From Armatimonadota bacterium (GTDB lineage: Bacteria > Sysuimicrobiota > Sysuimicrobiia > Sysuimicrobiales > Sysuimicrobiaceae), in assembly GCA_031432545.1 (NCBI GenBank), contig JAVKGX010000001.1, forward strand, positions 70,411-134,410: a stretch of 64,000 nt of DNA. The letters run 5' to 3'. This document shows positions 6,949-22,703 of the stretch, piece by piece. Every line of letters starts with the position of its first letter. Position 1 is the first letter of the stretch. The notes below the pieces were generated by a model, which was not told the DNA's origin, did not search any database, and was given only the letters and a program-made list of their open reading frames with translations. The position numbers were made by a program, and so were the translations under genes.

Positions 6949-7854
6949 TCAGCCCGCCACACCCGAACCGACGGCTGACAGGAACTTCTCCTCCACAGAT
7001 CCCTCAGGCACCTGCCCACGCCAGATGACGTAGACCCGACGGAAAAGGGGCGGCAGATCGGTGATGTGGATGCGCGCCAGCTGCCCGGCCTCTAGCTCGT
7101 GGCGCACCGTGCTCTCTCCGAGGAACGTCAGCCCGACACCTTGGAGGACCATGCGCTTGGCCGCCTCCGCAGGATCCACCTGCACGGCGGGTGAGAACTC
7201 CTCACCCAGTCGCGTGCGCAGCGCCTGCTGGAGCGGTTGGAAGCCCTCTCCCCACCGCGCGAGCAGCACGAGCTCCCGGCTCAAAGCCTCCAAGGGCACC
7301 TGCCGGCCGGCCAGCTCGTGCGTCGGCGGTCCCACGAGGGTCACCGGGTCTTCGAGGATCAACCGGCTGGAGATCTCCTCGTGCTGGGGACGGACGACCA
7401 CAAAGCCGACTTGGATCGTACCCTCAAGCAGCATCTGCGCCACGGCACGGGAGTGCCCCGTCCGCATGACGACGTGGACCTGCGGGTGGCGGGCGTGGAA
7501 CCGATCCAGGATCGTCGGCAGCATGTCCAGACTGACCGACACCACCGTTCCGACGACCAGCGTCTGCACCGCCCCGTCTGCACGCACTTCCGCCAGACCG
7601 TCTTCGATCGCGGCCAGGCCGCGTTCGACGTGGGCGAGCAGAGCCTCCCCGGCGGGTGTGAGCTCGACGCCCCGTCCCGTCCGACGGAACAAACGGTGCC
7701 CGACCTCGCGCTCGAGCGCTCTGATCTGCGCTGAGACGGCGGGCTGAGACAGAAAGAGGGCCGCGGCCGCGCGCGTGATGCTGCGCTCGTGTGCCACCCG
7801 CCGGAACGTCCACAGGCGCTGGAGGTTGAGTGAGGCGTTCCCACCCACAGGCAT
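6949..7854 (-). CDS. LysR-family transcriptional regulator
   Basis: 301-aa LysR-type regulator: an N-terminal winged helix-turn-helix (about residues 10-70, with TRAAAALFLSQPAVSAQI) and a type 2 periplasmic-binding-like effector domain (about 95-295). Its ligand is unknown. It is divergent from the peptidase/dipeptide-permease cluster that begins at 7988, the classical arrangement for a LysR regulator and its target. A GTTAG-N11-CTAAC palindrome lies between them. No Shine-Dalgarno is visible; a TATAAA box lies only eight bases before the ATG, so the mRNA may be leaderless. It is unlikely to control the trp operon, which has its own promoter and T-box. Confidence 0.9.
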   Translation of the reverse strand: MPVGGNASLNLQRLWTFRRVAHERSITRAAAALFLSQPAVSAQIRALEREVGHRLFRRTGRGVELTPAGEALLAHVERGLAAIEDGLAEVRADGAVQTLVVGTVVSVSLDMLPTILDRFHARHPQVHVVMRTGHSRAVAQMLLEGTIQVGFVVVRPQHEEISSRLILEDPVTLVGPPTHELAGRQVPLEALSRELVLLARWGEGFQPLQQALRTRLGEEFSPAVQVDPAEAAKRMVLQGVGLTFLGESTVRHELEAGQLARIHITDLPPLFRRVYVIWRGQVPEGSVEEKFLSAVGSGVAG

Positions 7855-7902: not shown

Positions 7903-7987
7903 AACGCCTCCGTAAACTGTCGCGCAAACCTCTTTGCGGGCGCGGCTTGGCAGCCTGTCGCCGGCTTTCGAGTTTGGAGGGACTCTC

Positions 7988-9127
7988 GTGGACGTTCGTC
8001 TCCGGCTCCAGGCGATCCGGCAGGCGATGGACGGCGAGGCCATCGACGCGCTCTACCTGCGCCCCGGTGCCAACCTGACCTACCTGACCGGGATCCGGCG
8101 CCAGCAGCCCCATCACACCGACACCAACGCCTACGCGGACTGGATCGAGGGCGTCTACCTCGGGGCCCACCGTGCGGTCCTCGTCGCCCCCCGGATGGGT
8201 TCGGAGTTCTTCCTGCAGCAAGCGCGGGGCAAGCCGTGGATCACCGACGTCCGGGTCGTCCTGGAAGGCGAAGATCCCACCGCGGTGATGCGCGACGTGC
8301 TCCAGCAGGTGGCCCCCGGCGCCCGCCGGGTGGCCGTGGACGACCGGGCCTGGGCCCCAGTGGTTCAAGCCTTGCACGCCGCGGGCCTCGAGGTGTCCGC
8401 GGCCCGTCGTCTGATCGATCCCATGCGGATGGTCAAGTCGGCGGAGGAACTCGACGCGATGCGCAAGGCTGCCCAACTGGCCGACGACGTGTACGCTCAG
8501 GCCCTGGCGGTGCTGCGCGAAGGCGCCAGCGAGCTGGACGTCGCCCACGAAATCGACTACCGGTTCGCCCTGGGGGGAGCCGACTACCCTTCGTTCGTGA
8601 CCGGCGTCCGGTTCACCCGCCCAAACAGCGACCGCCCGCACGCCCTGCGGCACGGCGCCCGGACGCTGGCGCCGGGGGACGCGGTGACGTTCGACTTCGG
8701 CTGCGTGCATGAAGAGTACTGTTCGGACTTCGGCCGCACCGCATTCGTGGGTGAGCCGCCCCGCGAGTTCACGACCATGTTCGATGCGGTGCTCGCGTCC
8801 CAGCACGCGGCGATGGCCGCGATGCGCGCCGGAGCCGTTACCGCGGAGGACGTCCACCAGACGGCACGACGCGTGCTGCAGGAAGCCGGCTACGCCGACT
8901 ACTTCACCCACCGCACGGGCCACGGCATCGGCATGACCGTGCACGAGCCGCCCTACCTGGACAGCGGGGACCGCACCGTCTTGCTCGAACACATGACGTT
9001 CACCGTGGAACCCAGCAGCCGCGTGCCCAACGGGTATGCCTGCCGCATAGAGGACGTGGTCGTCGTGACCCCGCAGGGCGCGGAGCCGTTGACGACTGCG
9101 CCCCGTACCCTGGCGGTGATCGAATGA
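7988..9127 (+). CDS. M24-family metallopeptidase (Xaa-Pro dipeptidase-like), copy 1
   Basis: Cytosolic metallopeptidase of the pita-bread fold, 379 aa from the GTG at 7988, which is preceded by GGAGGGA. The frame is open from 7934 but the upstream part has no ribosome site. All five metal ligands of the M24 family are present: Asp in FDFG, Asp in SDFGRT, His in TGHGIG, Glu in TVEP and Glu in IEDVVVV. The N-terminal creatinase/prolidase domain occupies about residues 1-150. It overlaps the next, related gene by ATGA. Likely role: cleavage of imported X-Pro peptides; the substrate is not proven. Confidence 0.92.
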   Translation: MDVRLRLQAIRQAMDGEAIDALYLRPGANLTYLTGIRRQQPHHTDTNAYADWIEGVYLGAHRAVLVAPRMGSEFFLQQARGKPWITDVRVVLEGEDPTAVMRDVLQQVAPGARRVAVDDRAWAPVVQALHAAGLEVSAARRLIDPMRMVKSAEELDAMRKAAQLADDVYAQALAVLREGASELDVAHEIDYRFALGGADYPSFVTGVRFTRPNSDRPHALRHGARTLAPGDAVTFDFGCVHEEYCSDFGRTAFVGEPPREFTTMFDAVLASQHAAMAAMRAGAVTAEDVHQTARRVLQEAGYADYFTHRTGHGIGMTVHEPPYLDSGDRTVLLEHMTFTVEPSSRVPNGYACRIEDVVVVTPQGAEPLTTAPRTLAVIE

Positions 9128-10320
9128 TCGAGCGCCCCGACCCGACGGTCTACGAGGCACGGGTGGACCGCTACCGGGCGGCGATGGACCGCTGGGGCGT
9201 CGACCTGTTGTTCTTGAACTTCGGGCCGGATCTGTACTACCTGTCCGGGGTGCTCACGCCGCGCTACTACTTCATCCTCAAGAGTGCGGCCGACTGGGTG
9301 AGCGGACTGTGGCTGCCGCGCGACGGTGCCCCGTTTTTGACGTTGTCCCGCTCGATGGCCGTCGACGCCGCGGAGCAGACGTGGATCTCCGACCTCCGCG
9401 TGATCGGCGGACCCGGCGGGCGGGACTTCAACGAACTGCGCACCGACGAGGATCCGGTCGCGTTCTTCAACGCGGCCGCCCGCAGCGTCGGCTCAGTCCG
9501 CTCGATCGGCACGACAGACAAAGTGTGGGCACAGACCGCCCACCACCTGCGGGAGGCGTTCCCGCAGGCCCAGCCGGTGATCCTCACGCCGTCGATGATG
9601 GACGGCCTGCGCATGATCAAGGACCCCTTTGAACTGCGGATGATGGCCAAAGCCGCCGAGATCACAGACCTCGCGATGGGGGCGACGCTGAGGCAGCTGC
9701 GCCCCGGCATGACCGAGCGGGACGTCGCCGTCGAGGTAGAGTACCAGATCCGCCGGTTCGGCGGGGACGGCTACTCCTTCCAGCCCGGCATCATCTGCGT
9801 GAAGCCGGGCAGCGAGACGCACCGCAGCGTCCTGACCCGCAACACGGACCTGGTGCTGACGCCGGGGACGTCGATCGCCTTCGACTTCGGTGTGCTCTAC
9901 CAAGGTTACTGCTCGGACTTCGGCCGCAGCGCGTTCGTCGACCCGCCCGACCCGGAGGCGCTGCGCGCGTACGCGGTGATCACCGAGGGTGTTCGGGAGG
10001 CCTGCGCCCTGTTCAAGGACGGCGCGATGAGCCCGGCCGGGATGTGCGAGTGGTTCAACGAATATGTCGGCGCACGGGGGTTCGGCGACGCGTACTGGTA
10101 CCTGGGGCTGGGGCACGGCATCGGCCTAGAGGTGCACGAGGACCCGCGCATTCGACCCGGATTCGACAAGCCGGTGCGCACGAACATGTGCTTCACGCTG
10201 GAGCCGAAGATCTGGCGCCACGGACGGTACTACGTCCGCAGCGAGGACGTCGTGGTCGTGGGTCCCGAGGGCAGCACGCCCCTGACGCGGTTCACCTACG
10301 CTCCCCTGGTGATTGCATGA
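9124..10320 (+). CDS. M24-family metallopeptidase (Xaa-Pro dipeptidase-like), copy 2
   Basis: Second M24 peptidase, 398 aa, a diverged paralogue of the preceding gene and translationally coupled to it. The metal ligands are again complete: FDFG, SDFGRS, GLGHGIG, LEP and SEDVVVV. The creatinase N-terminal domain covers about residues 10-160 and the catalytic domain about 170-395. Two adjacent paralogues suggest different peptide preferences or a heteromeric enzyme (inference). Its stop overlaps the dppC start as ATGA. Confidence 0.92.
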   Translation: MIERPDPTVYEARVDRYRAAMDRWGVDLLFLNFGPDLYYLSGVLTPRYYFILKSAADWVSGLWLPRDGAPFLTLSRSMAVDAAEQTWISDLRVIGGPGGRDFNELRTDEDPVAFFNAAARSVGSVRSIGTTDKVWAQTAHHLREAFPQAQPVILTPSMMDGLRMIKDPFELRMMAKAAEITDLAMGATLRQLRPGMTERDVAVEVEYQIRRFGGDGYSFQPGIICVKPGSETHRSVLTRNTDLVLTPGTSIAFDFGVLYQGYCSDFGRSAFVDPPDPEALRAYAVITEGVREACALFKDGAMSPAGMCEWFNEYVGARGFGDAYWYLGLGHGIGLEVHEDPRIRPGFDKPVRTNMCFTLEPKIWRHGRYYVRSEDVVVVGPEGSTPLTRFTYAPLVIA

Positions 10321-11210
10321 GCACCCGGGCGACGTCGCTGACCGCAGCGGTCGTGTCCGAACGCCCGCAGACGTACGCCGCGATCGTGCGGGCGCAGTTG
10401 CTGCGCAATCGCGGCGCGGTGGGTGGTTTGGTGCTGCTGGTCTTTGCCATCGGCGTAGCCGTGGGCGCGCCCTGGCTGGCGCCGTACGATCCGACCTACC
10501 AGGATCTGTTGGCACCGTTGGAGCCTCCGTCTCGCAAGCACCCGTTCGGCACCGACGAGGTCGGGAGGGACATCCTCAGCCGGGTCATCTACGGCTCCCG
10601 CATCTCGCTGAGCGTGGGCCTCATCTCCGTCAGCATCGGCGGCACCGCCGGCGTCACGCTGGGGCTGGTCAGCGGGTTCTACGGCGGCCGACTGGACGAC
10701 GTCATCCTGCGCGTGATGGACCTCATGCTGGCGTTTCCGGGCATCCTGCTGGCCCTGGCCATCGTCGCGGTCCTGGGCCCAGGCCTGTTCAACGTGATGA
10801 TCGCGGTCGGCATCGCGGCGACGCCCTCCTTCACACGGGTGACGCGCGGACAGACCCTCAGCGTGCGCGAGATGGACTACGTCGTCGGCGCGCGCGCCAT
10901 CGGCTGCACGAACGCGCGGGTGATCTGGCGTTACGTGCTCCCCAACGTGCTGCCCTCCATCATCGTGTTGGCGACGTTGGGGCTGGCGTCCGCCATCCTG
11001 GCGGCGTCGGGCCTGTCGTTCCTGGGTCTGGGCGCACAGCCGCCGACACCGGAGTGGGGCGCGATGCTGTCGTCAGGCCGTGCCTATCTGCGCCAGGCAT
11101 GGTGGATCACGACATTCCCCGGACTCGCGATCATGCTGACTGTGCTCGGCATGAACATGCTCGGAGACGGTTTGCGCGACGCGCTCGACCCGAAGCTGCG
11201 GCGGGCCTAG
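10317..11210 (+). CDS. dppC: Dipeptide/oligopeptide ABC permease, DppC type
   Basis: 297-aa inner-membrane permease with an N-terminal anchor helix (about residues 30-50), the PFGTDEVGRDILSR segment typical of DppC/OppC, and a five-to-six-helix binding-protein-dependent transport domain. The EAA-type cytoplasmic loop is visible around GARAIGCTNARVIWRYVLPN. The start ATG at 10317 overlaps the upstream peptidase; the longer open frame from 10044 is a shadow of that gene. No ATPase gene (dppD/dppF) is in the cluster, so the motor must be encoded elsewhere. Confidence 0.93.
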   Translation: MSTRATSLTAAVVSERPQTYAAIVRAQLLRNRGAVGGLVLLVFAIGVAVGAPWLAPYDPTYQDLLAPLEPPSRKHPFGTDEVGRDILSRVIYGSRISLSVGLISVSIGGTAGVTLGLVSGFYGGRLDDVILRVMDLMLAFPGILLALAIVAVLGPGLFNVMIAVGIAATPSFTRVTRGQTLSVREMDYVVGARAIGCTNARVIWRYVLPNVLPSIIVLATLGLASAILAASGLSFLGLGAQPPTPEWGAMLSSGRAYLRQAWWITTFPGLAIMLTVLGMNMLGDGLRDALDPKLRRA

Positions 11211-11240
11211 CCGCCGGATCACATGGAGGAGGTGGAAACG

Positions 11241-12869
11241 ATGCTTCGCGACCTACGGACCGGGCGCCGCGGGCAGATCGCCGGGCTCGCGGCGGGACTT
11301 CTGGCGGTAGTGCTGAGCCTACCCGCGCCGGCGCAGGAAGCCCGCGGGACGCTCATCCACGCCCAGGGCACCGTGTGCGCCGACACGCTGAACCAGCACC
11401 TGTCGAACAACACACCCTGCCGGATGGTGGCACGGCACGTGCTGGACAACCTGGTGGCCGTCAACCCCGCCGACGGCACGGTGCACCCGTGGCTGGCGGA
11501 ATCGTGGGAGATCACGGCCGGGGGCCGCATCTACACGTTCCGGCTGCGCCGCGGCGTGCGTTTCCACGACGGCACCCCGTTTAACGCCGAAGCGGTCCGG
11601 TTCAACTTCGAGTGGACGATGTCCCCCGACCGGCCGCGGCGGGGGTTCCGCTACCTCGCGATGGGCGGCCCTCGATACATCCGCACCGAGGTCGTCGACG
11701 AGTTCACGGTGCGCGTGGTCTTCCGCGAACCGCACGGGGGATTCCTCACCTACCTCAGCGACGGCGGACTGGGCATCGACTCGCCCGCCGCGCTGCGCCG
11801 GCTCGGGGACGACTACGGTTCCCGAGAGCTGGTGGGCACCGGGCCGTTCCGGCTCGTGAGCTGGACGCGCGGCGCCGAAGCCGTGCTCGAACGGAATCCG
11901 GACTACCGGTGGGGCGCCAGGGTGTTCGGCCACACCGGCCCCGCCTTCGTCGAACGGCTCGTCTACCGGCAGGTGCCGGAGGCCGCCACGCGCGCGGCGG
12001 TCGTGGAGACCGGACAGGCCACCAGCAGCCAAATCACGCCGCCGGACATCGCCGTGCTGCGCGGCAAGCCGGGGGTACGCATCGTCCTCGTCCCGAAGGC
12101 CGGGACCGCACGGATGATGCTGCTGAACACCAAAGAGAGCCCGACCAACGACATCCGCGTCCGGAGGGCCATCAACCACGCGATCAACAAGCCGCTGCTA
12201 ATGCGGCTGCCCGCGTGGAGCGGTACGGGACGACCGGGATTGGGTCCGCTGCCCACGAACATGGTGCCCCGGGCCTTCCAGGGGCTGTACCGGAGCCAGC
12301 TCCAGCCGGTGGACCTCGAGTACAACCCGGACCGTGCGCGGCAGCTGCTGGAGGAAGCGGGCTGGCGGGTCGGCCCCGATGGCATCCGGGTGCGGGGATC
12401 CGAACGGCTGGTCCTCGACCACGTCATCCCCGAGGGGACAGCCGTGCGCGAGTCCGAGCCGCTGCAGGCGATGCTGCGGCAGGTCGGCATCGAACTGCGC
12501 TTCCGGATCGGAGACTTCAACTTCTGGATCGGGACCGTGAGCAAGGGCGAATACCGGTCCACGATCATGAGCGACTCCGGGTACGAGAGCGCGGGCATCC
12601 TGTCCTCGTTCTTCCGAACCGGGTCGGTCTACAACTGGTACGGGTTCAGCTCACCTGAACTTGACCGGATGCTGGACACCGCGGTGGCTTCCGCCGACCC
12701 GGAGACGCGGTGGCGCAACCTGATCGGTGCCATGCGGATCATCCTCGCGAATGCCGTCGGGGTGATGGGCTGGGAGGAGGACTACGTCTTCGCGGCCCGC
12801 GCCAACGTCGAAAACCTGCAGTTCAACGAGGTGGCGTTCCCTTACTTCTACGCGACGCGGTTGCGGTAG
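11241..12869 (+). CDS. Peptide ABC transporter substrate-binding protein (SBP family 5)
   Basis: 542-aa extracytoplasmic binding protein of the DppA/OppA type. The start is the ATG at 11241 behind GGAGGAGGTG; an ATG at 11223 overlaps that ribosome site and is rejected. Residues 1-31 form a Sec signal peptide (basic start, hydrophobic core, PAPAQ cleavage region) with no lipobox cysteine, so the protein is probably released rather than lipid-anchored. Family features include AESWEI, FHDGTPF and GTGPF. It sits between the two permease genes, an unusual order. Confidence 0.93.
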   Translation: MLRDLRTGRRGQIAGLAAGLLAVVLSLPAPAQEARGTLIHAQGTVCADTLNQHLSNNTPCRMVARHVLDNLVAVNPADGTVHPWLAESWEITAGGRIYTFRLRRGVRFHDGTPFNAEAVRFNFEWTMSPDRPRRGFRYLAMGGPRYIRTEVVDEFTVRVVFREPHGGFLTYLSDGGLGIDSPAALRRLGDDYGSRELVGTGPFRLVSWTRGAEAVLERNPDYRWGARVFGHTGPAFVERLVYRQVPEAATRAAVVETGQATSSQITPPDIAVLRGKPGVRIVLVPKAGTARMMLLNTKESPTNDIRVRRAINHAINKPLLMRLPAWSGTGRPGLGPLPTNMVPRAFQGLYRSQLQPVDLEYNPDRARQLLEEAGWRVGPDGIRVRGSERLVLDHVIPEGTAVRESEPLQAMLRQVGIELRFRIGDFNFWIGTVSKGEYRSTIMSDSGYESAGILSSFFRTGSVYNWYGFSSPELDRMLDTAVASADPETRWRNLIGAMRIILANAVGVMGWEEDYVFAARANVENLQFNEVAFPYFYATRLR

Positions 12870-12941: not shown

Positions 12942-13868
12942 ATGTCCAAGTACATCCTCCGCCGCGTGCTGACGGCCATCCCTGTGCTGGTCGGGGTCAC
13001 CGTCTTGACGTTCTCGATGCTGCACTTCGTGCCGGGCGACCCCGTACTGGCGATGTTCGTCGAAAGCGGCGGTGTCACGGCCGAGCAGGTGGAGGCCATC
13101 CGCAGGAACCTCGGTCTCCACGAGCCGCTGCCGGTGCAGTACGGTCGGTTCCTCGTCCGCCTGCTGGAGGGCGACCTGGGTCGGTCCATCTGGGGCAACC
13201 ATCCGGTGGCCGAGTTGATCCTCGAACGGTTCCCACCGACCTTCCAGCTGGCGGTGGCGGCCATGGGGACGGCGATTTTCATCGGCACGACCCTGGGCGT
13301 GCTCGCGGCGATCCACCGCGGGCGTCTGGCCGACAACGTGACGATGCTGGTGGCGCTGCTGGGTGTGTCGATCCCGTCGTTCTGGTTGGGCTTTTTGCTC
13401 ATCTACGTGTTTGCGATCTGGCTGGGGCTGCTCCCGGTGACCAGCGGACCGGGACTGCAGGGGTTGATCCTGCCGGCCGTCACCCTGGGATTCGGCGCGG
13501 CGGCAATCATCGCCCGCATGGTGCGCAGCAGCCTCGTGGAAGTCCTCAGCGAAGACTACGTGCGCACGGCGCGGGCGAAGGGTCTGGGCCCGTGGAGCGT
13601 GATCGTGCGCCACGGGTTGCGCAACTCGCTCATCCCTGTGGTGACGATCCTGGGCCTGCAGTTCGGCGGGCTGCTTTCCGGCACGGTCATCGTGGAGTCG
13701 GTCTTCGCCCGGCGCGGCGTGGGCCGGCTGCTCGTCGAAGCGATCCAGAGCCGCGACTTCCCGGTCGTCCAGGGCGGCGTCCTGTTCATTGCGGCGATCT
13801 ACGTGATCGTCAACCTGACCGTCGACCTGCTGTACGGCTACCTCGATCCGCGCATCCGGTACGACTGA
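12942..13868 (+). CDS. dppB: Dipeptide/oligopeptide ABC permease, DppB type
   Basis: 308-aa permease with the family N-terminus (ILRRVLTAIPVLVGVTVLTF) and the periplasmic loop FVPGDP. The transport domain follows, with the EAA-like loop TARAKGLGPWSVIVRHGLRN. It partners DppC at 10317. A 72-base gap follows the binding-protein gene, and its stop overlaps the next start as TGATG. The neighbouring peptidases suggest import of short, perhaps proline-containing peptides. Confidence 0.93.
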   Translation: MSKYILRRVLTAIPVLVGVTVLTFSMLHFVPGDPVLAMFVESGGVTAEQVEAIRRNLGLHEPLPVQYGRFLVRLLEGDLGRSIWGNHPVAELILERFPPTFQLAVAAMGTAIFIGTTLGVLAAIHRGRLADNVTMLVALLGVSIPSFWLGFLLIYVFAIWLGLLPVTSGPGLQGLILPAVTLGFGAAAIIARMVRSSLVEVLSEDYVRTARAKGLGPWSVIVRHGLRNSLIPVVTILGLQFGGLLSGTVIVESVFARRGVGRLLVEAIQSRDFPVVQGGVLFIAAIYVIVNLTVDLLYGYLDPRIRYD

Positions 13869-15184
13869 TGCCGACGACCCCGCCTTCTGGGTCCACGTCC
13901 CGGCTGGTCGCGTTCTGGCTGCCGCTGGCCCTGTCGTGGCTGATGATGTCGCTCGCACAGCCGATCGTCGCCGCGGGCATCGGCCGCCTCGCGAACGCCG
14001 AGGTCCATCTGGCCGCCTACGGCGTCACGCTGGACTTGGCCGTGCTCATCGAGAGTCCGATCATCATGCTCTTCTCGGCGTCCGTCGCCCTGACGAAGGA
14101 CGAGGCGACCTACCGGCTGCTGCGCCGATTCATGCTGATCTTCGCGGTGGGGCTGACGGCGCTGTTCGCGGTCGTCGCCTTCACGCCCCTCGCCGACGCC
14201 GTGCTGTCCGGCCTCATCGGCGTGCCGCCGGCGGTGGCGGCCGAAGCGCGCACCGCGCTGCGTTGGCTGCTGCCGTGGGTGCCGGCGATCGCGTGGCGGC
14301 GGTTCTACCAGGGTCCGCTGCTGCGGGCGGACATGCCCCGATGGATCGGCTACGGCACCGCGTTCCGGCTGGCCGCCCTCGCCGGTGCGGTCGTCGCCGG
14401 CACGGCCGCAGGGTTGCCCGGAGCGACGATGGGCGCGATCGCGCTGTCGGCCAGCGTCGTTGTCGAGGCCCTTGTCGTCACCGTGTGGGCGCTGCCGGTG
14501 GTGCGCGCCCTCCCGGCCGGCGCGCGGGAGACCCTGACGATGGGCGACGTGGCGCGGTTCTATGTGCCGCTGGCCACCACCGACGTGATGCGCGTGGTCT
14601 CGCGCCCCATCGTGACGGCTGGGGTCGCCCGCGCGGCGCTGCCGGACATTTCGCTGGCGGCGTGGCCGGTGACGAGCGGGTTCGTCCACCTGTTGACCGC
14701 GGCCGTCATGGCGTTCCAGGAGATGGTGGTGGCCGTCCGGGACACCGCCGGCTACCGAGCCGTGGCCCGGTTCGTCACGCGCACCGGTGTGATTTTCTCC
14801 GCGGTGCTGGCGCTGGTCGCGTTCACGCCCCTGGCGGACGTCTACGTCGTGCGGATCCTCCAGCTGTCAGCCCCGCTGCGCGACGCGGTCGTCACCGCAT
14901 TGCGCACCCTGGTGGCCCTGCCGGCCTTGCTCGCCCTGCGGAACCTGTTCCGCGGGGCGCTCATCGCCGGCCGGCGGACCGCGCGCGTGCAGCAGGCCAT
15001 GGCCGGCAACCTGGTCACGCTGGCGGTCGTACTGATTGTCGGGGCCGCAGCGGCGGTGCCGGGGATCGTGCTCGCAGCCTGGGCGACGCTCATCGCGCAG
15101 GCCGCCGAGGTGGCCCTCCTGGTGGCCTTCTTGCGGATGGATCCATCGCCCGGCGTGTCGCTCCCGGAGGCGGCGGGGCGATGA
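13868..15184 (+). CDS. MOP-superfamily membrane protein, ANKH/MATE-like, copy 1
   Basis: 438-aa polytopic membrane protein with about 12 hydrophobic segments in two similar halves, as in the MOP flippase superfamily (MATE, Wzx, ANKH). Two sequence marks recall the ANKH (progressive ankylosis) branch: the first-half PLALSWLMM segment and, after the midpoint, FYVPLATTDVMRVVSRPIV, comparable to a WPLA...SRPIV pattern in ANKH. That reading is from memory, not a search. It overlaps dppB upstream and its own paralogue downstream by four bases. Substrate is unknown; in this cluster it could export a product of peptide breakdown (inference). Confidence 0.72.
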   Translation: MPTTPPSGSTSRLVAFWLPLALSWLMMSLAQPIVAAGIGRLANAEVHLAAYGVTLDLAVLIESPIIMLFSASVALTKDEATYRLLRRFMLIFAVGLTALFAVVAFTPLADAVLSGLIGVPPAVAAEARTALRWLLPWVPAIAWRRFYQGPLLRADMPRWIGYGTAFRLAALAGAVVAGTAAGLPGATMGAIALSASVVVEALVVTVWALPVVRALPAGARETLTMGDVARFYVPLATTDVMRVVSRPIVTAGVARAALPDISLAAWPVTSGFVHLLTAAVMAFQEMVVAVRDTAGYRAVARFVTRTGVIFSAVLALVAFTPLADVYVVRILQLSAPLRDAVVTALRTLVALPALLALRNLFRGALIAGRRTARVQQAMAGNLVTLAVVLIVGAAAAVPGIVLAAWATLIAQAAEVALLVAFLRMDPSPGVSLPEAAGR

Positions 15185-16497
15185 CGCCGGTGTCGTGGCG
15201 CTCCCTGCTGGCCTTGTACGTCCCGCTGATGCTCAGCGGCCTTTTGATGACCCTCGAGGCACCGCTCATCGTCGCCGGCATCGCACGCCAGCCCGCCGCG
15301 GAGCTGTTCCTCGCCGCGTTCGGCGTCGCCTTCGCGATCGCGCTGATCTACGAGGCGCCCGTCATCATGGTCCTGGAGGCCTCCATCGCCCTCACCGACG
15401 GTTGGGCGGCCTACCTGCGGTTGCGGCGCGCCTACCTGCTGCTGGGGGGCGCGCTGACGGCGCTGGGGATCGCGGTCTTCTTCACCCCGGTCTACGATCT
15501 GCTCACCGCGCACCTGATGGGCATCCCCGAGCCCATCGCCCGCGCAGCACGGCCGGCGCTGATGATCCTAACGTTCTGGCCGCTGCCGATCGGCTGGCGC
15601 CGGCTGCATCAGGGCGTGCTGATCCGCTACGAGCGCGCGGGCATCATTTCGGTGGCGACGGGCATCCGACTGCTCATCCTCGCCGCTGTCCTGTTCAGCG
15701 GCGTGTTCCGCACGGCTGACGGCGCCGTGCTGGGGGCGTTGGCGATGGTGGTCGGCGTCACGGTAGAGGCGGTCGTCGTCACGATCCCGGCTCTGACGCT
15801 GCTGGGGCCTCGCCCGGGGGCAACGGGGCAGCGCCCCTGGCGCGCGCTGTGGTCGTACTACTGGCCGCTGGCGGGCACCACGCTCCTCCAGCAAACCAGT
15901 CGGCCGTTGATCACCACCGGCGTCGCCGCGGCCCGGGACGGCGCCCTGTCGCTGGCTGCGTGGCCGGTGGTGCTCAGCATATCGATGTTCAGCTGGGGGC
16001 CGCTCAACGCGCTGCAGCAGGTGATCATCGCCGTGGCCGACCACGAGGCGAACCGTCGCCGTGTGCTGCGGTTCGTCCTGGCCATCGGGGGCGGACTGAC
16101 TGCGACCCTCGTGCTGGTCACGCACACCGCGCTGCTGGACGTGCTCTTTCGGCAAGCGTTCGGCATCTCGTCGGCGCTGGCAGCGCTGGCGACGCCCGCA
16201 GCGAGGTTGCTCTCGGTGATCCCTCTGGTGATGGCCCTGCAGTCATACTTCCGCGGCCGGCTGATCCGCGACGGACGCACCCGCGTCGTGCAGCGCGCGA
16301 TGCTGGCGAACCTGGCGGTCGTGGCCGGCGCGGTGGCGGGGGCGTTGACGTTCGGCCCCCTGTCGGGGGCGGTCTTCGGTGCCTTGGCGATCCTGTCGGG
16401 GGGCGTGGCCGAGATGGGCGCGCTGTGGTGGGGTGGACGCACCGCGGCGGCGCCGGCGCCGACACCCGAGATGGTGGAAGTCAGCAGACCGCTGTAA
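15181..16497 (+). CDS. MOP-superfamily membrane protein, ANKH/MATE-like, copy 2
   Basis: 438-aa paralogue of the preceding gene, with the same length and aligned motifs: PLMLSGLLM near the start, an acidic EAPVIM segment, WRRLHQG, and YYWPLAGTTLLQQTSRPLI after the midpoint. The two adjoin by ATGA, so they are co-translated and may form a heterodimer. The longer frame from 13936 is a shadow of copy 1. Function is not known beyond the likely transport class. Confidence 0.72.
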   Translation: MTPVSWRSLLALYVPLMLSGLLMTLEAPLIVAGIARQPAAELFLAAFGVAFAIALIYEAPVIMVLEASIALTDGWAAYLRLRRAYLLLGGALTALGIAVFFTPVYDLLTAHLMGIPEPIARAARPALMILTFWPLPIGWRRLHQGVLIRYERAGIISVATGIRLLILAAVLFSGVFRTADGAVLGALAMVVGVTVEAVVVTIPALTLLGPRPGATGQRPWRALWSYYWPLAGTTLLQQTSRPLITTGVAAARDGALSLAAWPVVLSISMFSWGPLNALQQVIIAVADHEANRRRVLRFVLAIGGGLTATLVLVTHTALLDVLFRQAFGISSALAALATPAARLLSVIPLVMALQSYFRGRLIRDGRTRVVQRAMLANLAVVAGAVAGALTFGPLSGAVFGALAILSGGVAEMGALWWGGRTAAAPAPTPEMVEVSRPL

Positions 16498-16510: not shown

Positions 16511-18442
16511 ATGGACCGGGCAGCAAGTCCCCAAACAGCGACGCACGCCGGACCGCCACTCAGCATCGACCAGCTCCTGGCCATCCGACCGGCGGTGCTG
16601 CCGGAGGCACCCCAGTGGGCGCCGGACGGCTCGGCGATTCTGTTCGTGTCCGCGATGTCGGGCGAACCGGATCTGTGGACGGTGTCCCCGTCGGGCGGAC
16701 TGCCGACCCGCCTGACGACCGGGATGGGCGAGATCCCTTTCTTGGGCGCGCGGATGCCGCAGTGGTCGCCCACCGGTGATTGCATCGCTTACATCTCCGC
16801 CAAGAGCGGGACGCCGGAGATCTGGCTTTGGACCGGCCGCGGTCCGGACCGGCGGCTGACGCGTCTGGGTGCTGCGATCGAGGCCTTCCGCTGGGCCCCC
16901 GACGGGCGTGCGATCGTGCTGGCCGGCAACCGCTACGGCCAGTACGACATCTACCGCGTGGCCGTCCCCTCGGGCGAGGCGACCCGTTTGACGCGCGATC
17001 CGCGTTACGAGGTGTACCCTGCGTTCACTCCCGACGGCCGCATCGTCTACGTACGGCTCAATGAGGCGTGGACCGATCACGACGTGGTGCTGATGGATGC
17101 CGACGGAGGCAACGCTCGCGTCGTGGTGCGCGACACGGATATGTTCGACTACCACTACGGCCGTACCTTCGGAACGCCGCAGCCATCGCCGGATGGAACC
17201 CACCTGCTGATCCGCTCCCAGCGGTCGGGTTGGTTCAACTACTACATCGCACCGCTGGCCGGCGGAGACCTGCGCCCCGTGGCCGCGGCCGCCGCCGATC
17301 AGAGCGACGCCGTCTGGTCGCCCGACGGGAGGTCGGTGGCCTACGTCGAGAACCACGACGGCACGCTGCAGATCCGGATCGCTCCGGCCTCCGGAGGCGA
17401 ACCGCGGGTGCTGGTCGATCCCGACGAGGGCGTGTGTTCGTTTCCGCAGTGGTCGCCCGACGGTGCCCGGATCTGCTACCTCTTCCAGACCACGACGGCT
17501 CCGCAGGACCTGTGGGTCGTGGATGTGGACAGCGGACAGACCCGTGCGCTGACCACGTCGGTGCCGGCCTGGGCCGCCCCAGCGCTGGTGCGACCGAAAA
17601 AGGTCCGCTATCCGACCGACGACGGGCTGACGATCTCGGCCTATCTGTACCCCGGCCGGGGTCTGGGACCGGGCGAGAAGAGTCCGGGAATCCTGTGGAT
17701 CCACGGCGGTCCCACCTCGCAGTTCCTCGACACCTTCCAGCCGTCGGTGCAGTTCTTCGCCGGCCAGGGCTACTCGGTGCTGCTGCCCAACATCCGCGGC
17801 AGCTCCGGCTACGGGCGCGCGTTCGAGGACCTCAACAACAGGGACTGGGGCGGAGGTGACCTGCGCGACGCGATCGCCGGAAAACGGTACCTGGCCACCT
17901 TACCCGAGGTGGACCCCGACCGCACCGGCATCACGGGCACCAGCTACGGCGGCTGCCTGACGATGTCGGCGGTCTGCTACGCGCCGGAGGAATTTCAGTG
18001 CGCGGTGGCGTGTTCGGGCTATGCGAACTGGGTGCGCCACTACCGCGAACTGGAACTGCGGCACATCAAACTCCTAGAGTACGAGTTCGGTGGACCGCTT
18101 CAGGGCAACGAGGACGTCTACTACCGGTGCTCGCCCATCTACAAAGTCTCGCAGGCGACGACGCCGTGCTTCGTCCTGCACGGGGAAGGGAAGTGGCCGT
18201 GGAGCGACGCCGGGTTGGAGTTCGCCCGGGCGCTGGAGCGGGAGTACAAGACCTTTCGATACAAGGTCTACCCGAACGAGAACTACTACGTGCTCTCCAC
18301 ACCCAACGTCCGGCAGATGCTGCTGGACATGCTGGAGTGGTTCGACCTCTACCTCCGCGACCGCGCACCCGCCGGAGGCGGACACGGCGGCCAGCGAACA
18401 CGCGGATGGACCGGCCCGGTCAGTCGGGATGTGGCGGAGTGA
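16511..18442 (+). CDS. S9-family (prolyl oligopeptidase-like) protein with degraded catalytic triad
   Basis: 643-aa protein. The start is the ATG at 16511 behind AGGAGG. Residues about 30-360 contain repeated WSPDG/WAPDG blades of a beta-propeller (TolB/DPP4-like). The C-terminal alpha/beta hydrolase domain starts with LWIHGGP and has the nucleophile elbow GTSYGG. The usual Asp after LHGE is missing (LHGEGKWPWSD), and the usual catalytic His position reads YPNENYY instead of a YPxExH form. Only the serine of the triad is obvious. It may be a non-peptidase esterase, a binding protein, or use other residues. It ends the peptide-utilisation operon. Confidence 0.85.
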   Translation: MDRAASPQTATHAGPPLSIDQLLAIRPAVLPEAPQWAPDGSAILFVSAMSGEPDLWTVSPSGGLPTRLTTGMGEIPFLGARMPQWSPTGDCIAYISAKSGTPEIWLWTGRGPDRRLTRLGAAIEAFRWAPDGRAIVLAGNRYGQYDIYRVAVPSGEATRLTRDPRYEVYPAFTPDGRIVYVRLNEAWTDHDVVLMDADGGNARVVVRDTDMFDYHYGRTFGTPQPSPDGTHLLIRSQRSGWFNYYIAPLAGGDLRPVAAAAADQSDAVWSPDGRSVAYVENHDGTLQIRIAPASGGEPRVLVDPDEGVCSFPQWSPDGARICYLFQTTTAPQDLWVVDVDSGQTRALTTSVPAWAAPALVRPKKVRYPTDDGLTISAYLYPGRGLGPGEKSPGILWIHGGPTSQFLDTFQPSVQFFAGQGYSVLLPNIRGSSGYGRAFEDLNNRDWGGGDLRDAIAGKRYLATLPEVDPDRTGITGTSYGGCLTMSAVCYAPEEFQCAVACSGYANWVRHYRELELRHIKLLEYEFGGPLQGNEDVYYRCSPIYKVSQATTPCFVLHGEGKWPWSDAGLEFARALEREYKTFRYKVYPNENYYVLSTPNVRQMLLDMLEWFDLYLRDRAPAGGGHGGQRTRGWTGPVSRDVAE

Positions 18443-20504: not shown

Positions 20505-22703
20505 ATGTCCACCGCTCTTCTTTGGGTCCCTCTGATTCCGATCGTCGGCGCCGCGTTCATCGCCCCGCTGTCGAGGCGGGCGGCCGCTGCGGGGGCGCTG
20601 GGGGTCTGCGCCGTCACCCTGGCCCTATTGGGTGCCCTCTCGCGACAGGCTCTGCCGGTTTCGGCGGGCGCACAGTGGTTGCCCGCCCTCGGCGTGCGCT
20701 ACGCGCTGGCCTTGGACGGGCTGGGGTCGGTGTTCTCGCTGCTCATCGCGGGCGTGGGCATCCTCATCGTCGCGTACGCGATCGGCTATCTGCCCAAGGA
20801 AGCGCGGCTGGGCACGTTCTTCGCGTTCTTGATGCTGTTCATGGGATCGATGCTGGGGCTGGTGCTGGCCGACGACCTGATCGTCCTGTACGTCTTCTGG
20901 GAGCTGACGTCGGTCGCGTCGTTTTTGCTCATCGGCTTCCACCACGAAGACCCCGAAAGCCGCCGGTCGGCGATCCGTGCGCTGGTCGTCACGGTCCTGG
21001 GCGGTCTCGCCATGCTCGCGGGAATCGTGCTGATGGGTACCACCGCCGGCACGTTCGCCGTCTCGGCGCTCGTCGGGCGGGCCGACGCGGTGCAGGCCAG
21101 CACGGTGTACCCATGGATCGTCGGCCTCCTGCTGGCCGGCGCGTTCACGAAGTCGGCGCAGGTTCCGTTTCACTTCTGGCTGCCCTCCGCGATGGTCGCA
21201 CCCACTCCGGTGAGCGCCTACCTGCACTCGGCCACGATGGTCAAAGCCGGAGTGTTCCTGCTGCTGCGCCTGGGCCCCGTACTCGGCGGAACCCAAACGT
21301 GGAGCGCCTGGGTGGTCCCGGTCGGGATGGCCACGTTCCTGTTCGCCGCTGCGGTCGCCGTCTTCCAGGACGACCTGAAGGCGCTGCTGGCCTATGCGAC
21401 GGTGAGTGCGCTCGGCCTGGCGACGGCACTGGCCGGGACGGGCACGGTCGCCGGCCGCGACGCGGCGTTGCTGGTCTTGCTCACGCACGCCGCCTACAAG
21501 GGCACCCTGTTCTTGGTGGCCGGCGCCGTGGAGCACGAAACCCACAGCCGTTCGATCCGCCGGCTCGGTGGCCTGGCCCGGACGATGCCGATCACCGCCG
21601 TGCTGTCCGGCGCAGCGGCGATGTCGATGCTGGGGATCCCGGGGTTTGGGGGGTTTTGGGCCAAGGAAGCCGCGTCTGCAGCTCTGCCGACCGTCGAGGC
21701 CGCGCTGCTGTCGGCGGGGTCGGTCTTCACCGCCGCGTACGGCTTCCGGTTTTTGTCCATCTTCTGGAGGCCGCCGGACGCCGAGCCGGGCGCCCACGAC
21801 GCGCCGACGCTGTTGGCGCCGGCCGCCGTGCTGGCGGCGACCGGTGTGCTGTTCGGGTTGTGGCCCGCGTCGCTGGAGCAGGTCGTCGCGCCCGTTGCGG
21901 GGACGGTGAACCTGTGGCATGGCCTCAAGCCCGACAAGCTCGGTCTGACGATCCTCACGCTGGCGTTGGGGGCCGCGCTCGCGCGGTGGGGGAGCGCGCC
22001 GGCGCTGCCCGTCGAAGGCGGCAGGATCTTCGATCGCTGGATGGACATGCTGATGGCGTTCGCAAAGTTCCTCGCCCGGCGGACGATCACCGGTGTCCTG
22101 CGCGACTACCTCGCCGCGGTGCTGGTGACCGCGATCGCCGGGGCGGGCTTCGCACTGTGGCGCTTCGGGGACTGGTCGGGCACGGATCCCTTCCGTCCCT
22201 TTCCCCACGAGGTCATGGTGGTCGTCCTCGCCATCGCGGCGGTCGTCACCGCGACGGTCGTGCGCAGTCTCGTGGCCGTCGTGATCGCGCTGGGCGCGGT
22301 CGGCTACACCGTCGCGCTGCTGTTCCTCTCCTTGCTGGCACCCGATCTGGCTCTGACGCAGGTCCTCGTCGAGACCGTCACCTTGGTCCTGTTCCTGACC
22401 GTCGTGACGCACCTGCTCACCCCCGACGAGCCCAACCGCCACCCGGGGATGGCGGTCGACGCGCTGCTGGCGGTGGGAGCCGGACTGACCGCCGCGGGCC
22501 TGGCATCCCAGATCCTACGCCGGTCCGAAGACACGCGGCTGGCGACGTTCTTCGCGGAACACGCACAGGCCGCCGGCGGCACGAATCTGGTGAATCTGAT
22601 CCTCGTGGACTTCCGCGGTCTGGACACGCTCGGCGAGATCACCGTCTTGGGCATCGCGGCGCTGGGGGTGTTCGCCCTGGCGCAACGGCGGAGGCCGAGA
22701 TGA
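20505..22703 (+). CDS. mrpA: Mrp Na+/H+ antiporter subunit A
   Basis: 732-aa polytopic protein homologous to the NuoL proton channel. The ion-path residues expected in the family are visible: the Glu in WELTSVASF, the Lys in FTKSAQVPFHFWLP and the Lys in HSATMVKAG. The C-terminal extension (about residues 570-730) contains the MrpA-specific helices, including SLLAPDLALTQVLVETVTLVL. It is first of seven overlapping genes with the full mrpABCDEFG order. The complex exports Na+ in exchange for protons at the cytoplasmic membrane. Confidence 0.95.
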   Translation: MSTALLWVPLIPIVGAAFIAPLSRRAAAAGALGVCAVTLALLGALSRQALPVSAGAQWLPALGVRYALALDGLGSVFSLLIAGVGILIVAYAIGYLPKEARLGTFFAFLMLFMGSMLGLVLADDLIVLYVFWELTSVASFLLIGFHHEDPESRRSAIRALVVTVLGGLAMLAGIVLMGTTAGTFAVSALVGRADAVQASTVYPWIVGLLLAGAFTKSAQVPFHFWLPSAMVAPTPVSAYLHSATMVKAGVFLLLRLGPVLGGTQTWSAWVVPVGMATFLFAAAVAVFQDDLKALLAYATVSALGLATALAGTGTVAGRDAALLVLLTHAAYKGTLFLVAGAVEHETHSRSIRRLGGLARTMPITAVLSGAAAMSMLGIPGFGGFWAKEAASAALPTVEAALLSAGSVFTAAYGFRFLSIFWRPPDAEPGAHDAPTLLAPAAVLAATGVLFGLWPASLEQVVAPVAGTVNLWHGLKPDKLGLTILTLALGAALARWGSAPALPVEGGRIFDRWMDMLMAFAKFLARRTITGVLRDYLAAVLVTAIAGAGFALWRFGDWSGTDPFRPFPHEVMVVVLAIAAVVTATVVRSLVAVVIALGAVGYTVALLFLSLLAPDLALTQVLVETVTLVLFLTVVTHLLTPDEPNRHPGMAVDALLAVGAGLTAAGLASQILRRSEDTRLATFFAEHAQAAGGTNLVNLILVDFRGLDTLGEITVLGIAALGVFALAQRRRPR

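Follow-up and report, generated by a model that had tools for sequence, protein, structure and literature searches.

The window, a 64,000-nucleotide stretch of DNA, encodes an S9-like protein that keeps the nucleophilic serine of the S9 peptidases and has lost both of its catalytic partners, the aspartate being replaced by Lys561 and the histidine by Tyr592. The protein belongs to a clade of six that all lack this Asp and His, and its gene forms part of an operon for peptide import. It is probably a non-hydrolysing S9 homologue, an S9 pseudopeptidase, that binds a peptide or a partner. Annotation at the level of the Pfam family labels it merely a prolyl oligopeptidase.

Architecture and catalytic columns

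The gene opens with an ATG at 16511, preceded by AGGAGG at about 16500, and continues to 18442 (Table 1). The span of 17640-18442 in the original prediction corresponds to the C-terminal part and falls short of the whole gene. Membership of family S9 by descent is established by the Pfam Peptidase_S9 profile (PF00326, 131.8 bits against a curated cut-off of 22.6), and the PD40 repeats score 89.8 bits. The S9 layout of a propeller followed by a C-terminal α/β-hydrolase domain is found in the Pfam matches, in the predicted structural elements and in the fold match described below.

Table 1 The S9-like protein, its motifs and the neighbouring genes (positions in the window)
Feature	Position	Strand	Remarks
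LysR-family regulator, divergent from the operon	6949..7854	-	75% identical in G026
M24a, M24 metallopeptidase, Xaa-Pro dipeptidase-like	7934..9127	+	76% in G026
M24b, second M24 metallopeptidase	9124..10320	+	no separate copy in the G026 operon
DppC/OppC-like peptide ABC permease	10317..11210	+	83% in G026
SBP_bac_5 peptide/nickel-type solute-binding protein	11223..12869	+	86-87% in G026
DppB/OppB-like peptide ABC permease	12942..13868	+	84% in G026
MATE/ANKH-like multi-helix membrane protein 1	13868..15184	+	no Pfam/NCBIfam match; resembles the product of the next gene; 70% in G026
ANKH-like membrane protein 2, start uncertain	15175..16497	+	PF07260, 24.5 bits against a cut-off of 22; no separate G026 copy
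S9-like protein, 643 aa	16511..18442	+	PD40/TolB-like beta-propeller ~aa 17-350; Peptidase_S9 alpha/beta-hydrolase domain ~aa 355-617; variable tail 618-643
GTSYGG nucleophile elbow, Ser478 kept	17936..17953	+	
HGEGKWPW (from aa 557), Lys561 at the catalytic-Asp column	18179..18202	+	Asp in 49/49 canonical relatives
YPNENYY (from aa 587), Tyr592 at the catalytic-His column	18269..18289	+	His in 49/49 canonical relatives

The catalytic domain was aligned with those of 54 distinct relatives, a copy of the query (L055) being excluded from all counts. In the canonical relatives, the three catalytic columns hold Ser, Asp and His without exception (49 of 49 for each), a count that covers the neighbourhood of the query and not all of S9, because the relatives were collected by similarity to the query and one phylum is heavily represented. 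In the window protein, the nucleophile of the GxSxG motif is retained as Ser478, Lys561 falls exactly in the column of the catalytic Asp that follows strand β7, and Tyr592 falls exactly in the column of the catalytic His that follows strand β8. The original prediction had described an intact GTSYGG elbow, a replaced Asp site (LHGEGKWPW) and a Tyr at the usual His site (YPNENYY), and the alignment bears out all three. The window genome also encodes three S9 proteins with the full triad (C3:112500-119500 and C6:64000-68500; L088, L089).

An AlphaFold model of the protein, built from 5 alignment rows, is of modest confidence, with a mean pLDDT of 68.7, a pTM of 0.71 and 150 residues below 50. Each site shows the usual topology in the predicted secondary structure: strand 467-476 and helix 479-490 flank Ser478, strand 553-558 and helix 565-577 flank the loop with Lys561, and strand 582-587 and helix 599-616 flank Tyr592. 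The best whole-length S9 fold match is 8wt1_A (Z 27.7 and rmsd 5.4 across 528 residues). Foldseek again places 8wt1_A at the top, but at a TM-score of 0.67 and with a global rmsd of about 9, so it is uncertain how the model positions the two domains relative to each other.

A clade of six proteins without the catalytic Asp and His

An ortholog with 84% identity and the same Lys and Tyr changes is encoded by a genome of another family in the same order (G026). Four further proteins, paralogues on one contig of a genome from another phylum (G408), match the window protein at 523-592 bits in phmmer and are likewise devoid of Asp and His; their Asp sites read HGEGKPP, HGEGRGP, HGEQSGP and LGEGKKP, and their His sites NERYYV, DEGYYV, GEIYYV and GESSSV. 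The replacement is therefore neither a sequencing error nor a chance event. The six proteins form one clade and represent one change, with an SH-aLRT support of 98 in a 55-row tree from which the three motif stretches had been removed, the tree being made by a quick method with no bootstrap and its checks pointing to an odd letter make-up in two G408 clade rows and to long end branches in other rows.

Ser478, Tyr592 and a basic residue at position 561 each occur in five of the six members. The basic residue and Ser478 are found together in the same five and are both gone in the sixth, the paralogue G408:C83 24192-26120, in which the nucleophile is Ala (GRAFGG). The original prediction had raised the question of whether homologues share YPNENYY: Tyr592 is indeed present in five members, including the G026 ortholog, and is missing from the paralogue G408:C83 26219-28135, where Ser (SSS) stands in place of Tyr592 and Tyr593. 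The paralogue without Ser and the basic residue and the one without the Tyr pair are adjacent and on the same strand (L076 16193-18118 and L077 2220-4133).

Comparison of the window gene with its ortholog in G026 gives dN/dS values of 0.116 for the whole gene, 0.08 for residues 351-617 (the catalytic domain) and 0.26 for the tail (618-643), ratios that are rough, since dS is about 1 (Nei-Gojobori with Jukes-Cantor, own script). The lowest value of all stretches measured, 0.057, belongs to residues 549-612, which contain both replaced sites. Five other genes from the set of operon and regulator, with DppC left out, give 0.11-0.26. The S9-like gene is under strong purifying selection and is not decaying. 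With one clade of six, dN/dS values of 0.08 and 0.057 and a conserved operon, the proposal of a distinct subfamily rather than decay is upheld.

The clade is rare: over the scans made, it is found in three genomes, two of them with the peptide-import operon. A query of the C-terminal 121 residues retrieved the window genome (G000), G026 and G370 from 386 relatives of G000; G370, a weak match, is canonical (GEKDYR, DEGHWV) and is not counted in the clade. From 385 relatives of G051, a sample that overlaps the former in genomes, the same query retrieved G408 together with G420 and G459, which retain Asp and His. The clade alignment (A4) matched G408 only among 132 genomes of its phylum, and matched nothing in 4, 10, 291, 17 and 40 genomes of five further phyla, in scans run with no internal positive control. 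The C-terminal query gave no match in plasmids. A G408 paralogue is matched by 364 plasmid records, of which six were inspected and all six are canonical; another search matched 299 plasmid records, and the one inspected (H1) is among the same six. All 4 matching loci in a collection of genome contigs are canonical, and four scans of viral contigs found no relative.

Operon context and conservation of the propeller

The neighbours of the S9-like gene are assigned to the families LysR, Peptidase_M24 (both M24 proteins), BPD_transp_1 (both permeases) and SBP_bac_5, and M24a is nearest to the Xaa-Pro dipeptidases and aminopeptidases. Family profiles detect no ABC ATPase among the eight neighbour proteins. 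For the DppC/OppC-like gene, listed as an open reading frame of 10044-11210, the start was set at the ATG matching the G026 gene start. The G026 operon follows the same order, with LysR, M24a, DppC, the binding protein, DppB, membrane protein 1 and the S9-like protein. Among 43 genomes of the phylum, a close relative of the binding protein (87%) is found only in G026, the next reaching at most 39%; the operon therefore looks like a rare and possibly transferred unit. Two M24 peptidases stand in tandem within it (7934-10320), as do two ANKH/MATE-like membrane proteins (13868-16497).

As judged by eye, the window protein and its G026 ortholog have no evident signal peptide, and the G408 paralogues look exported. 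The gene neighbourhood of these paralogues differs from the operon. In the region G408 C83 19848-31281 (L076/L077), the paralogues at 20655 (-) and 24192 (+) each adjoin a small exported-looking protein; these small neighbours share about 65-70% identity and could be partners. An S9-domain-only hydrolase that retains Asp and His (28183, +) is located in the same cluster.

The balance of conservation between the two domains differs in the clade from that of the canonical proteins. The canonical set comprises 21 full-length relatives, a subset of the 49 drawn from a chosen list of 22 loci, and yields 106 pairs with enough aligned columns and a hydrolase identity of 30-65%. The hydrolase domain is the better conserved of the two in 102 of these 106 pairs, and the propeller at least equals it in the other 4; mean identity is 28.9% in the propeller and 38.8% in the hydrolase domain. 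In the 15 clade pairs, by contrast, the identities of the two domains lie within 4 points of each other in either direction, and the window protein shares 46-48% with the G408 paralogues in each domain. Pairs within this comparison, canonical or clade, are not mutually independent. Similar conservation of both domains would be expected of a protein whose function has passed to the propeller.

Thirteen propeller residues, D163, R165, E167, E185, D189, H190, D213, R235, R238, D263, H282, R289 and C309, are invariant across the six clade members and occur in no more than 4 of the 21 canonical rows, with His190 and His282 each occurring in 1 of the 21. By our own reading of the predicted strands, most of them appear to belong to D-A and B-C loops and so to a single propeller face. 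In the hydrolase domain, H398 of the HGGP loop is the only His of the window protein common to all six, and it is equally present in 21 of 21 canonical rows.

Function of the S9-like protein and relation to known systems

S9 peptidases act through a Ser-His-Asp charge relay, which cannot operate in its normal form in the S9-like protein because the acid has become Lys and the base Tyr. Catalysis is presumably absent on the evidence of these residues, and the protein would be retained for binding, with both the binding and its ligand suggested by the gene neighbours. The sequence, and the fold match of a model of modest confidence, show a retained two-domain cage, in which the serine elbow and the HGGP loop persist beside a Lys at the position of the acid and a Tyr at that of the base. 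The best candidate for the ligand is a peptide that contains proline or is blocked in some other way; the ABC importer of the operon would bring it in and the M24 dipeptidase-like protein would process it. The S9-like protein would be their partner in the cytosol, binding or holding peptides or having a regulatory role. The charged, His-containing residues typical of the clade may form the main binding surface on the propeller, and the exported-looking G408 paralogues would bind outside the cytoplasm.

Neither Ser nor Tyr is indispensable, since one clade member lacks the Ser (GRAFGG) and another lacks the Tyr pair (SSS). Together with the conservation of the propeller, these losses favour a non-catalytic role, and the different activity suggested in the original prediction, if taken as an enzymatic one, is not supported. 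On the other side, the presence of Ser478, Tyr592 and a basic residue at 561 in five of six members each goes beyond what binding by itself demands.

The conservation of these three positions bears on the alternative of a clade made active by a rebuilt site, which is unlikely; we know of no precedent in family S9 for either arrangement considered here. One is a hydrolase or transferase with a Ser-Tyr-Lys site, in which Lys561 would lower the pKa of Tyr592 and so let Tyr592 act on Ser478 as its base, much as in the chemistry of class C β-lactamases and family VIII esterases or of SDR enzymes. The three residues occupy exactly the Ser, Asp and His columns, the basic residue and Ser478 are kept together and lost together, and the stretch with both replaced sites has the lowest dN/dS; however, one paralogue has Ser for Tyr592 and Tyr593, another has Ala as its nucleophile, residues 561-563, Lys561 included, have a pLDDT below 50 in the model, and to our knowledge such a triad has no known case in an α/β-hydrolase; we regard this site as quite improbable. 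The other arrangement would draw the base for Ser478 from the propeller, with His190 or His282 and nearby acids reaching over the domain interface. In its favour, both His residues and the accompanying D163, R165, E167, E185, D189, D213, R235, R238, D263 and R289 are invariant in the clade and scarce in canonical rows, most of them on what appears to be one propeller face. The paralogue with Ala in place of Ser nevertheless retains His190 and His282, which speaks for a role independent of Ser, and a propeller-completed site is very improbable.

An ordinary S9 hydrolase with its acid and base at shifted positions is about as improbable as the Ser-Tyr-Lys site. The window sequence does offer H510, H518, H557, E559 and D566 near the site, but H510 and H518 are confined to the window protein and its G026 ortholog, with none of the four G408 paralogues having either, D566 lacks conservation, and H557 (5/6) and E559 (6/6) also occur in 11/21 and 15/21 canonical rows that have their own Asp and His besides. 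Alternative triad residues within the hydrolase domain were rejected, as they are not conserved across the clade. The absence of the catalytic residues could also reflect a recently inactivated gene that is being lost, a reading that is improbable in the extreme: the frame is open and has a ribosome-binding site, dN/dS is low over both gene and catalytic domain, and the ortholog, which lies in the corresponding operon, carries both replacements too. Decay of the S9-like gene is rejected by dN/dS.

The closest known systems are the PD40-propeller S9 peptidases of the acylaminoacyl peptidase/S9 carboxypeptidase group (8wt1, 5yzm; NCBIfam Dpp5 and AtxE2), which share the two-domain architecture, the whole-length fold match, the GxSYGG elbow and the HGGP loop. 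The S9-like protein differs from them in the replacement of both Asp and His, and scores far under the NCBIfam cut-offs for Dpp5 (145 bits against 900) and for the lasso isopeptidase AtxE2 (139.4 against 400). In the passages of PMC4350108 that concern them, DPP6 and DPP10 are inactive animal S9B homologues that have lost Ser (Gly651 in DPP10), DPP10 retaining His and Asp (His759, Asp727), and both are kept for a role on another protein. The likeness lies in an S9 fold without peptidase function, which for the window protein is deduced from its residues; relative to that account, the window clade shows the reverse pattern, with Ser mostly kept and both Asp and His gone (Lys and Tyr in the window protein), it is bacterial, and the window gene lies in an import operon. 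The pattern of a replaced Ser with Asp and His kept is not found in the S9-like protein. MEROPS, in the relevant text of PMC4702814, maintains a class of ‘non-peptidase homologues’, likewise peptidase homologues without essential residues, although the class is a catch-all label. Going by these sources, non-peptidase homologues are already known as a kind, and what varies here is the residue pattern; our literature search found no description of an S9 clade with Ser kept and Asp and His replaced. If non-catalytic, the clade would offer a bacterial model for an S9 cage turned into a peptide- or protein-binding device; if catalytic, it would bring a novel arrangement of the active site to a hydrolase fold that ranks among the best studied. 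TolB shares the PD40 propeller, and its profile TIGR02800 matches the S9-like protein at 149.8 bits. TolB has no hydrolase domain, whereas the S9-like protein carries one and remains below the TIGR02800 cut-off of 343.15.
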